A DNA stretch of 48,589 nt from Planctomycetota bacterium (GTDB taxonomy: Bacteria > Planctomycetota > Planctomycetia > Pirellulales > Pirellulaceae), in contig JAGWZB010000003.1 of assembly GCA_018969045.1 (NCBI GenBank), forward strand, positions 1 through 48,589. The letters run 5' to 3'. A model generated the notes under the pieces. That model was not told the DNA's origin, made no database searches, and saw nothing but the letters and a program-made list of their open reading frames with translations. Position numbers and translations under genes: made by a program. Within the stretch, counting starts at the first letter, position 1, and each line of letters begins with the position of its first letter. Below are positions 12,031 to 19,890 of the stretch, in pieces.

Positions 12031-13053
12031 TTACTTGATTTGAATTGCTCGGCAGTCGCATAGGTGGGATGCGACATCGCTTTGGAAACACTGGCTGTAA
12101 TTCATCTGCTTGAGTCGCTCATGACGAGGCTCACTGCAGGTCGAGCATTTCCCAAGCATAGAATCCCAATCCCATAAATCCACCGTATATATCACCTCAG
12201 ATGTCTCAAGAGCCGATTGGCCGAGCCGATCTTGAAGCAATTTCTCGAAGGCTTGTTCGAGCTGTCGGGCCGTTGGAGGCTGCCAAGCGACTTGCTTTGC
12301 GACGCTCTGGATGAAACCATTGCCAGTCCGAGTGGGAATCAAGCAGATGCGGTTCGCCCCGCACTGGGCTGCCCACTGACTGCTGCGCACTGCCCAATCA
12401 ACTGAATCTGCAAGGGGAGTTCCAAGTGGCTGCAAGAGAACGAAAGCTCGAACGTGAATCGCCTCAGTGCCAAGAAACTCGACCGCCTTTGCGAACTGAT
12501 CCAGGCTCATCGATTTGTTGAGCCATTTTCTTCCCTGTGGATCTATGGTTTCGAGCCCCATAGCGATCTCCAATTCCCCATCGAGCAAGTCCCGAAAACG
12601 CAGCACCGAATCCCTGATGTTTTGCCTAGCAAGCAATGCTGCATGATTCTCGACAATGACTCTCTCAAAACCTCGGCACCATTGCGCAATGGTAGCATGC
12701 TCGCTAGGGTCTACGTTCGCAGGATCAAAAAAATTCGAAGCATTGTAAAGCTTAAGCCATTCTCTAGGATTCCGGTTCGGACTCTCGCGGGCGATCCTAC
12801 GATGGAGATTTTCAATTTGAAGCGTCAAAGAGCCGACCGGTGTCTTTTTCGCATCGAGCGTATATTTCCAAAGATCGCACATCGAGCAACTGAACCTACA
12901 TTCAGAACCCACCAGAAAGTAAGTCAGAGCGGAGATCAAGTTGCCATGGCCATCGGTTTCAAGCTCTTGAGCCCAGCCCATCGACTGCCCAGCTACGCGA
13001 GGAATCTTTGGAGACCTTGCACTTCGAATCTTCCCTGTGAGCGACTTATCCAT
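12031..13053 (-). CDS. Radical SAM protein, COG1244 / archaeosine-synthase-RaSEA-like
   Basis: CRFSCSMC (CX3CX2C); LYNASNFFDPANVDP, VENHAALL, EIAMGLETIDPQGRKWLNKSMSLDQF resemble this subfamily; extra C-terminal cysteines CSTC...CDC. Confidence 0.7.
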   Translation of the reverse strand: MDKSLTGKIRSARSPKIPRVAGQSMGWAQELETDGHGNLISALTYFLVGSECRFSCSMCDLWKYTLDAKKTPVGSLTLQIENLHRRIARESPNRNPREWLKLYNASNFFDPANVDPSEHATIAQWCRGFERVIVENHAALLARQNIRDSVLRFRDLLDGELEIAMGLETIDPQGRKWLNKSMSLDQFAKAVEFLGTEAIHVRAFVLLQPLGTPLADSVDWAVRSSQWAAQCGANRICLIPTRTGNGFIQSVAKQVAWQPPTARQLEQAFEKLLQDRLGQSALETSEVIYTVDLWDWDSMLGKCSTCSEPRHERLKQMNYSQCFQSDVASHLCDCRAIQIK

Positions 13054-13882
13054 CCATGTGTTCCTGAGCGTAGCTAGCCAGAAAAACTGCAGCCGCGATC
13101 AGATCAGCGGTGGTTCCTGGGTTCATTCGATGGTGGTTTTGTCGAAGAAAACTATCGAATTTCGCCCAAGCCGATTCATAGCTCTGGCTTGAGTAAACTC
13201 CGCTTTGCAAAACTGCCAGAGCATGAGATTGCACCACATTGCCGATCTCTTTACCATGCTTGCGCACGATCAAGCTATCGGGACGAGTAGCCAAGATTTC
13301 GATTTGCAAACACCGTATTGCATCGCGTTGCGGTAGGTGTTTGAGCAACTCAAGAAGTCGGCCACTCCACTGTGAGACTTGCTCGAAGCCATTGGTATAT
13401 TGCAAAGCGACATCGTCCCAACTTGCTGCGAGCTTCATCGCATCGAGGATCGAGGGGGGTGGGGTATTTCGCACGTCTTGGTGATCGACCTTCCCCAGTC
13501 CACCTGGATTGGTCAATCGTATGGCTTGATATATTGCCTGGCTGTCGCCGGGAGTGGAGGTTTGAATGATCGCAGAAACCTTTTGGCCGAAAGGTATGTT
13601 GGTCGATGGCAGGGCAAGGGCCATGGGTGCAAGAAGCAGGATCGTACCCAGGCTGGTATTGACCCCTACGGTTTCGAGCATGGCTTGGACACCAACCAAA
13701 ACGACTTGACCGAGTTGACCCTTTGGCACTGTGCGATCAAAGGCTTGACCGATCGCCGAGGCTGCCATTTGAAAGTCTTGAAACTGCATATCGGAAAACG
13801 AGGCCTCTGGGTGTACATTCCCCGCCTTGATCGAAGACGCTTCGCTTAGAATCGCTTCCGAAATACGTTTTCCGATACTCAA
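13046..13882 (-). CDS. Triphosphoribosyl-dephospho-CoA synthase-like (CitG/MdcB family) protein
   Basis: EAILSEASSIKAGNVHPEASFSDMQFQDFQMAA...VGVNTSLGTILLLAPMALA resembles the CitG family. Overlaps the start of the radical SAM gene by 8 nt. Confidence 0.75.
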   Translation of the reverse strand: MSIGKRISEAILSEASSIKAGNVHPEASFSDMQFQDFQMAASAIGQAFDRTVPKGQLGQVVLVGVQAMLETVGVNTSLGTILLLAPMALALPSTNIPFGQKVSAIIQTSTPGDSQAIYQAIRLTNPGGLGKVDHQDVRNTPPPSILDAMKLAASWDDVALQYTNGFEQVSQWSGRLLELLKHLPQRDAIRCLQIEILATRPDSLIVRKHGKEIGNVVQSHALAVLQSGVYSSQSYESAWAKFDSFLRQNHHRMNPGTTADLIAAAVFLASYAQEHMDG

Positions 13883-18081: not shown

Positions 18082-18136
18082 TGGATTGGCTCTGCAGTAA
18101 AAAGGGGGGTGGATTATTTAATGTGTCCAAGTATCT

Positions 18137-19018
18137 TTGCCGGGCATGCCAATTCAAGACACACTCTACCCGCTGTTTAGGTCCAGGACGCTCATGACGA
18201 TCGGCTCTATCGCGATTGCGATGGGCGGTTACTCATTGTTTCCGATCGTCAAAGAGTATAGCAAGTACTCCGATGTGGGGGACACACCGTCAGACCTCCA
18301 TGCAGCCCTTTCCTTGGTCCTGGGGTGGCTATTGGTGTTTCGTACCAATGCGGCTTACGCACGCTGGTGGGAAGCTCGAACGCTCTGGGGAAGTTTGATC
18401 AATTGCAGTAGGAACTTGGCCATCAAGATCCAGGAGTTCTTTCCTGATTTGAGTTTCGAGGAACGCCGATTCCTTTCTAGGCATCTGTCTGAATTTCCAA
18501 GCGCGCTTACTTGTCATCTTCGCAAGGAACCCTATTCGGGCCCGATTTTCCAAGGAGCGGTACCGACACATGTCCCACTGGCGATCTCTCAAGATCTTTA
18601 TCGGTGGATTGCGAGTCGTCTAGCCAATACCAAGTTCGATCGGGATTTGCTAAGGATTCTGGATTGTGAGACTGCCAAGCTCATGGATATTTGTGGAGCG
18701 TGTGAACGGATCGCAAAAACGCCTATGGTACGGTCTTATCGGGTCTTCGCCCGGCAGTGCATCTTTCTGTTTCTTTTCACTTTACCATGGGGTTTGGTCC
18801 AAGACTTCATGTGGTGGACATTGCCATTGACGATCGTCATCTCCTACTTCATGGTTGGTATGGAAATTGTCGCTGAGCATGTCGAAGAGCCTTTCGGTTT
18901 TGACGAAGACGATTTGGATCTAGAGGGCATGTCCAAGACGATTGCCAATTCCGTAGAAGAGATTTTTTACAACAGCCGCAGAGAACTGAGTCAACCCGTC
19001 CAAGAAGAACAAGGATAA
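18137..19018 (+). CDS. Bestrophin-like (UPF0187) membrane channel protein
   Basis: VLGWLLVFRTNAAYARWWEARTLWGSLINCSRNLAIKIQEFF; C-terminal MEIVAEHVEEPFGFDEDDLDLE. Confidence 0.88.
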   Translation: MPGMPIQDTLYPLFRSRTLMTIGSIAIAMGGYSLFPIVKEYSKYSDVGDTPSDLHAALSLVLGWLLVFRTNAAYARWWEARTLWGSLINCSRNLAIKIQEFFPDLSFEERRFLSRHLSEFPSALTCHLRKEPYSGPIFQGAVPTHVPLAISQDLYRWIASRLANTKFDRDLLRILDCETAKLMDICGACERIAKTPMVRSYRVFARQCIFLFLFTLPWGLVQDFMWWTLPLTIVISYFMVGMEIVAEHVEEPFGFDEDDLDLEGMSKTIANSVEEIFYNSRRELSQPVQEEQG

Positions 19019-19023
19019 ACAGC

Positions 19024-19890
19024 ATGGATATCATCTACCGCTTCGACCCTTATGCACCGCTTGAACTAAAGCGGCCTAAGAACAACAAAGAGGCGTTAAA
19101 GACTTTGCATCAGGGGAATTGTCGATTCTATTCGATGGTCAATCACTTGCAGAATGTGCAGGATGGCAAGAAGGTCGAGTCGATGGTCGTGCCTATTTCT
19201 CCTGTGCAATTGGGGATTCCGGTCGTAGGTGGGTTGGCTCAGATGCACTCACCGTATGCCGCAGTGCTTGGATGCGCCGATGCGAGAGTTCCGATCGAGC
19301 ATATTTTTGACTGTTCCTCCAACGATCTGTTCGTGGTCCGGGTTGCTGGAAATGTCTTGGGCCTGGAATGCATCGGGAGTATCGACTACGCCGCAACAGC
19401 TCTTCGAGAATCGCTGCAAAGTGTCATTGTGCTAGGTCACACCAATTGCGGTGCGGTGGGGGCAGCCGTCAATGTCTATCTAGCTCCATCGAGTTTTGCC
19501 GAAGTCGCTTTTAGCCATCCGGTTCGGACTATTATCGACCGGATCATGGTCTCGGTTCGCAGTGCCGCAGAGGCCCTCGAAGCAGTCTATGGATCGAAAA
19601 TCGCGAAGAACAAGCAGTACAAAGACTGGCTTATCAACGCTTCATGCTTCGTCAACAGTGCATTTACTGCCTATGATTTGCAGCGTGAAGTCAATGCGGT
19701 CACCAAAGGTCTAGTCGTTTCTTATTCGGTCTACGATATGGCTTGGTCGACCGTCAACGCCACACCGATCCGCAACGCCCAGGAGGCTTATGACGCCCAT
19801 GCCTTCGGGACCGCTCCAAAGAATCCAGAGGACCTCCAAGCGATCGCCAAAGAGATCGCTCAATGCATGGAGTTACCGGCGAAGCGTTGA
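19024..19890 (+). CDS. Beta-class carbonic anhydrase
   Basis: CxDxR zinc/catalytic motif AAVLGCADARVPIEHIFD; VIVLGHTNCGAVGAAV (HxxC). Confidence 0.92.
   Translation: MDIIYRFDPYAPLELKRPKNNKEALKTLHQGNCRFYSMVNHLQNVQDGKKVESMVVPISPVQLGIPVVGGLAQMHSPYAAVLGCADARVPIEHIFDCSSNDLFVVRVAGNVLGLECIGSIDYAATALRESLQSVIVLGHTNCGAVGAAVNVYLAPSSFAEVAFSHPVRTIIDRIMVSVRSAAEALEAVYGSKIAKNKQYKDWLINASCFVNSAFTAYDLQREVNAVTKGLVVSYSVYDMAWSTVNATPIRNAQEAYDAHAFGTAPKNPEDLQAIAKEIAQCMELPAKR

Follow-up and report, generated by a model that had tools for sequence, protein, structure and literature searches.

A bestrophin-family channel gene recurrently linked to a beta-carbonic anhydrase gene in Planctomycetota: a putative operon for passive bicarbonate handling

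The stretch of DNA analysed here (the window: 48,589 nucleotides of contig JAGWZB010000003.1, assembly GCA_018969045.1, from a planctomycete of the family Pirellulaceae) carries a bestrophin-family channel gene directly followed by a beta-carbonic anhydrase (CA) gene, and the same pairing recurs in other members of the phylum. On balance, and with modest confidence, we favour the reading that the window pair is an operon, linked in translation, whose products handle bicarbonate passively: a HCO3- channel would be coupled to a cytosolic CA. Its observed basis is family membership, conserved CA active-site residues, the operon-like structure and the recurrent linkage with CAs and carbon transporters.

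A sequence-only reading of the window had placed a bestrophin gene directly upstream of a beta-CA gene on the + strand with a spacing of 5 nt. Both open reading frames are present, at 18137..19018 (+, bestrophin) and 19024..19890 (+, CA), with matches to PF25539 and PF00484, respectively, and the gap of 5 nt (19019..19023, +) is confirmed by the sequence. The motif AAGGA (19011..19015, +), a Shine-Dalgarno-like site, lies inside the last bestrophin codons, 8 nt before the CA start ATG at 19024, and is likely to be the ribosome-binding site of the CA gene; AAGGAT is also present in the relatives L187-L189. The arrangement is operon-like and has the geometry of co-translated genes. Upstream, a divergent intergenic region of 55 bp (18082..18136) separates the bestrophin gene from an SDR gene on the - strand, and from its position it is the presumed promoter of the pair. 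The true bestrophin start is probably ATG 18146 rather than TTG 18137, because the relative L064 begins there.

The bestrophin assignment comes from the Pfam profile search (PF25539, Bestrophin_2: 189 bits, cut-off 27, profile positions 50-288 of 288) and from the relationship to KpBest of Klebsiella pneumoniae (4WD7/4WD8 and variants), the nearest solved structure (E 3e-23). KpBest structures are also the top PDB matches of the window model, with a TM of 0.72-0.77 by query length for a model of moderate confidence (pLDDT 69.8). Family and fold are thus the same, but identity is only about 24%, and the neck is I/I/F in KpBest and L/W/F in the window protein. The neck residues L60/W64/F68 stand at the three KpBest positions; the middle isoleucine of KpBest (I66) is absent and its place is taken by the aromatic W64. 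Eukaryotic bestrophins have an IFF neck motif, with an aromatic middle residue, and conduct Cl- and HCO3-. KpBest, the only bestrophin from bacteria to have been studied in detail, is a Na+ channel, and its neck mutation I66F shifts the channel towards Cl- (PMC8496536). The window neck is compatible with anion selectivity but is not proof of it, because the same tryptophan is found in related bestrophins without CA linkage (L055, L058, L062). This occurrence also rules out the tryptophan as a marker of CA-linked channels.

The CA gene encodes a protein of 288 aa, identified by profile, structure model and active-site residues. It matches PF00484 (Pro_CA) with 78 bits (cut-off 25.7, Pfam profile search) and is closest to Rv3588c of Mycobacterium tuberculosis (1YM3/2A5V), with which, as with other beta-CAs, it has the fold and the zinc and dyad residues in common. 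The predicted zinc ligands are C84, H139 and C142 and the dyad is D86/R88; all five residues are invariant in both alignments (19 and 25 sequences). Three positions ahead of the first zinc-binding cysteine there is a valine, where the Haemophilus influenzae CA has W39. The AlphaFold model has a pLDDT of 92.6, and among the matches listed, all 50 of 50 PDB entries are beta-CAs (E down to 3e-10). The TM values against beta-CA structures, 0.43-0.50 by query length, are low because of elements that Rv3588c and the other beta-CAs do not have: an arm at the N-terminus that bears the conserved motif [I/L]xYR[F/Y]DP, an insertion separating the N-terminal helix from the core, and an extended C-terminus. 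Scores fall below the cut-offs of both the PRK10437 equivalog (37.8 bits versus 251) and the PRK15219 subfamily (56 versus 221) of NCBIfam, and by these scores the protein belongs to neither model. In a quick CA tree, computed without bootstrap, it falls in a clade of 52 rows separate from other beta-CAs (SH-aLRT 100, stem length 1.55), termed here the 'YRFDP family', a convenience name coined in this analysis. The clade is found in Planctomycetota, with a scattered presence in Pseudomonadota (Rhizobium, Ensifer plasmids, Rhodoblastus, Defluviicoccus) and in MAGs with the labels Actinobacteria, Vicinamibacteria, Thermoanaerobaculales, Blastocatellia and Thermomicrobiales.

When the window genes are compared with their nearest relatives, dN is 0.04-0.07 for the CA and about 0.09-0.10 for the bestrophin; synonymous sites are saturated or nearly so, and only the low dN is reported here, with no dN/dS ratio. 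Low dN against such synonymous sites indicates that both genes are under purifying selection. Two CA genes elsewhere have an irregular frame, that of G008:C76 (L022/L191) being split into two overlapping frames and that of G090:C180 (L025) containing a TAG; decay or assembly error are possible in each case.

How closely are the two genes associated? The window is from a Pirellula-like planctomycete, the closest named locus being 'uncultured Pirellula sp.'. Among 27 genomes of the window's genus group, a full or nearly full CA is present in 16, and in 15 of these 16 the bestrophin gene is immediately upstream. In the remaining genome, G011, no bestrophin gene adjoins the CA gene; its bestrophin is located elsewhere and belongs to another subclade. 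The bestrophin lineage also occurs in three genomes (G020, G021, G023) without this CA. The adjacency could be no more than gene order inherited among close relatives, or a random association, with no functional coupling, and the window, L156 and L186-L189 do have surrounding genes in common. The flanks of the pair vary, however, with at least six neighbourhoods distinguished (window/L156/L186-L189; L159/L161/L163/L191; L160/L185; L064/L162; L164/L190; and L165, which is from another genus of the same family). The bestrophin-CA pair persists in differing surroundings, and this rules out plain synteny in close relatives.

Adjacency is also conserved outside close relatives, within the phylum, with pairs in several families and orders. 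In 73 bestrophin-bearing planctomycete genomes, at least 13 of 104 bestrophin genes have a beta-CA gene within 3.2 kb, on the same strand in all 13 counted cases, whereas 0.26 such pairs would be expected on either strand. The excess, about 50 times above chance, rules out chance adjacency; the other 91 bestrophins have no listed beta-CA within this distance. Both gene orders occur. The bestrophin gene is upstream of a YRFDP CA in a second family of the class (L176, L177, L178), and downstream of one in two further genomes from the order (L171, L172), in a Pirellulales MAG (L071) and in Gemmataceae (L070, L073); a single gene intervenes between the two in Fuerstiella (L065). CAs of non-YRFDP clades adjoin bestrophins as well (L192, L199, L200, L201, L202), and SulP or a SulP-CA fusion is part of three of the clusters (L193, L196, L197). 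In L176-L178 the YRFDP CA has as its partner a bestrophin of a lineage remote from the window's. At least eight changes of the linked state are required on the CA tree, five with the YRFDP family taken alone, and at least 11 on the bestrophin tree, although both are quick trees computed with no bootstrap, and losses may account for part of the changes. Several clades of both proteins being linked, with multiple changes of state, the pairing probably formed more than once; both trees argue against one transferred block as the source of all pairs and disfavour a single ancestral block.

Outside the phylum no such linkage appeared. In 30 bestrophin-bearing Pseudomonadota genomes none of 37 bestrophin genes has a beta-CA gene within 15 kb, the nearest on the same contig being about 38 kb away, and the difference from the planctomycete count (at least 13/104 versus 0/37) gives a Fisher p of 0.02, the Pseudomonadota distances having been compared by eye from coordinates. 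Nor was a bestrophin gene found beside other beta-CAs of diverse bacteria (0 of 57 loci, with flanks up to 6 kb and some shorter) or in the flanks examined around the non-planctomycete YRFDP members, and four annotated regions around plasmid-borne bestrophins contain no CA. Over the genome counts, which cover planctomycetes and Pseudomonadota, the linkage looks phylum-specific. This absence from the other phyla sampled would fit inherited gene order. Against it stand the persistence of the pair in changing flanks, the two gene orders, the different CA and bestrophin lineages and the excess over chance, and inheritance or random association without functional coupling is highly improbable as an explanation. 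No bestrophin-CA fusion protein was recognised, nearly all bestrophin open frames being shorter than about 500 aa, and no description of a bacterial bestrophin-CA operon or linkage was found in the open-access literature searched. A Pseudomonadota bestrophin (G667:C1:286824-287672) sits in an open frame that, at 1023 codons, is unusually long, which may reflect a fusion or merely a lack of stops.

The sister CAs keep other company, which is the main reason for assigning the bestrophin a bicarbonate-related role: it occupies beside the CA the position that DabAB, SbtA or SulP has elsewhere. SulP permeases are known or suspected inorganic-carbon transport systems, and they are found near YRFDP-family CAs in L174, L081, L082 and one Planctomyces plasmid. 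DabA (797 bits) and DabB-like antiporter subunits lie beside sister YRFDP CAs in L167, L174, L078 and L079, and antiporter subunits are near a CA of the family in L175; L167 has two antiporter-type subunits. In the Pirellulaceae locus L180 (G436:C1, about 3491200-3494400), SbtA (PF05982, 294 bits) is followed by a PII-like gene, the probable SbtB, and then by the CA. DabAB and SbtA, too, are known or suspected inorganic-carbon transport systems (PMC8438413). With such partners, an inorganic-carbon role for the CA family is well motivated, although many YRFDP CAs have no recognised carbon-transport neighbour (e.g. L068, L069, L074, L083). As an observation in its own right, L180 represents an SbtA-SbtB-CA cluster in a planctomycete, with a CA only distantly related to that of the window.

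Might the bestrophin instead be a Na+ or chloride channel that controls osmotic balance or membrane potential, co-regulated with the CA in alkaline or low-CO2 stress and moving no bicarbonate? The Na+ conductance of KpBest (PMC8496536) speaks for this, and so do universal stress protein genes near bestrophins: L193 and L197 have the order CA, SulP, universal stress protein, bestrophin, and a universal stress protein gene adjoins a Caulobacter bestrophin. Repeated linkage specifically to CAs and to SulP or SulP-CA genes would be unexpected for an osmotic channel, however, and the window neck is not the IIF motif of KpBest; we regard this explanation as unlikely. In L196 (G204:C1:6532000-6543000) a stand-alone beta-CA, a SulP-CA fusion and a bestrophin follow one another in this order and with the same orientation, a cluster that unites three inorganic-carbon candidates.

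The genome that carries the window also has DabA and a SulP-CA fusion, which are other uptake candidates. The pair had been described as distinct from the DabAB and SulP/SbtA systems, and this is only partly right, as both of these genes are in the same genome and bestrophins elsewhere cluster with SulP. At a completeness of 93%, the genome yielded no RuBisCO large subunit, and this fits the suggestion of a probable heterotroph; carbon concentration based on RuBisCO is rejected on the same ground.

How, then, would the favoured operon work? Channels of the bestrophin family are passive. The window bestrophin would form a pentameric membrane channel through which HCO3- crosses the cytoplasmic membrane, and the cytosolic beta-CA would rapidly equilibrate HCO3- with CO2, which permeates the membrane, so that slow CO2 hydration would not limit the passage of ions through the channel. 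HCO3- permeability, the direction of flow and any physical contact between bestrophin and CA are here inferred. The electrochemical gradient would set the flow. By our own estimate, a cytosol with CA at pH 7.6 and air-level CO2 would hold several hundred micromolar HCO3-, whereas at -120 mV the equilibrium across a passive anion channel would lie at about 1% of the concentration outside; between a CA-held pool and such an equilibrium, net flow would therefore be outward. In a respiring heterotroph with an inside-negative potential, outward flow would thus be the likelier: CO2 would be hydrated inside, HCO3- would exit and the proton would be retained. The pair may in this way act as a CO2/bicarbonate and pH valve that disposes of CO2 and retains acid, which could be useful, e.g. 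at alkaline pH. Inflow would be expected only if the membrane potential were weak or external bicarbonate very high.

These considerations bear on the sequence-only reading, which had proposed a bicarbonate import and hydration module. What stands of it is a real, recurrently assembled pair whose CA family keeps company with DabAB, SbtA and SulP; the import is not supported, as bicarbonate would be expected to leave an inside-negative cell with a CA-equilibrated pool through a passive channel. Import would have the bestrophin bring in HCO3- and the CA convert it to CO2 or balance the pool for carboxylases. In its favour, the genes that accompany the CA family elsewhere encode uptake systems or candidate ones, and growth of algae at low CO2 needs their bestrophins (PMC6708349). 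Yet HCO3- cannot be accumulated through a passive anion channel when the potential is inside-negative, the acidic lumen that provides the pull in algae would have no counterpart in the window's organism, and the genome already has DabA and the SulP-CA fusion; import seems decidedly improbable. DabAB, SbtA-SbtB, SulP/BicA and the SulP-CA fusions resemble the window pair in joining a transporter with a CA or CA-like subunit, and they adjoin sister CAs, but they are energised transporters or proposed vectorial CAs, whereas the bestrophin is a passive channel, and its fold argues against a part in energised inward HCO3- transport.

The algal systems offer a parallel. In Chlamydomonas, the carbon-concentrating mechanism depends on BST1-3, which have been proposed to supply CAH3 with HCO3-, and the same source also cites data in support of BST1 and BST3 interacting with LCIB/C (PMC6708349). 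As is proposed for the window pair, a bestrophin channel works there with a carbonic anhydrase on inorganic carbon (PMC6708349). Unlike the window pair, the algal proteins are eukaryotic, located in the thylakoid, driven by an acidic lumen and not encoded in an operon, and they serve an autotroph with RuBisCO; CAH3 is an alpha-CA and the window CA a beta-CA. The planctomycete pair would mirror this partnership as a bacterial, operon-level counterpart.

The recurrent pairing with CAs suggests that bacterial bestrophins, which are little understood, handle bicarbonate, and it provides a concrete and testable hypothesis, bicarbonate conductance; if true, these channels would gain a physiological role tied to CO2 and HCO3-. 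A wider proposal is put forward tentatively: Planctomycetota might have a further class of inorganic-carbon module, a HCO3--conducting bestrophin with a beta-CA in an operon, in which the YRFDP protein would be a general cytosolic partner joined to bestrophin, DabAB, SbtA or SulP according to lineage. Such swapping of partners beside one CA family would constitute a natural set for the study of CO2 and bicarbonate management in heterotrophs.

Two further gene associations were seen. PcxA is a proton extrusion protein linked to cyanobacterial inorganic-carbon uptake, and on Chroococcidiopsis plasmids (L211, L212) a bestrophin gene is in a conserved block with genes for a sigma factor, a cation diffusion facilitator and PcxA. 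Elsewhere in the window (12031-13882, - strand), a CitG-like protein is encoded beside a protein weakly similar to RaSEA, the radical SAM protein of archaeosine biosynthesis (54 bits, cut-off 212).
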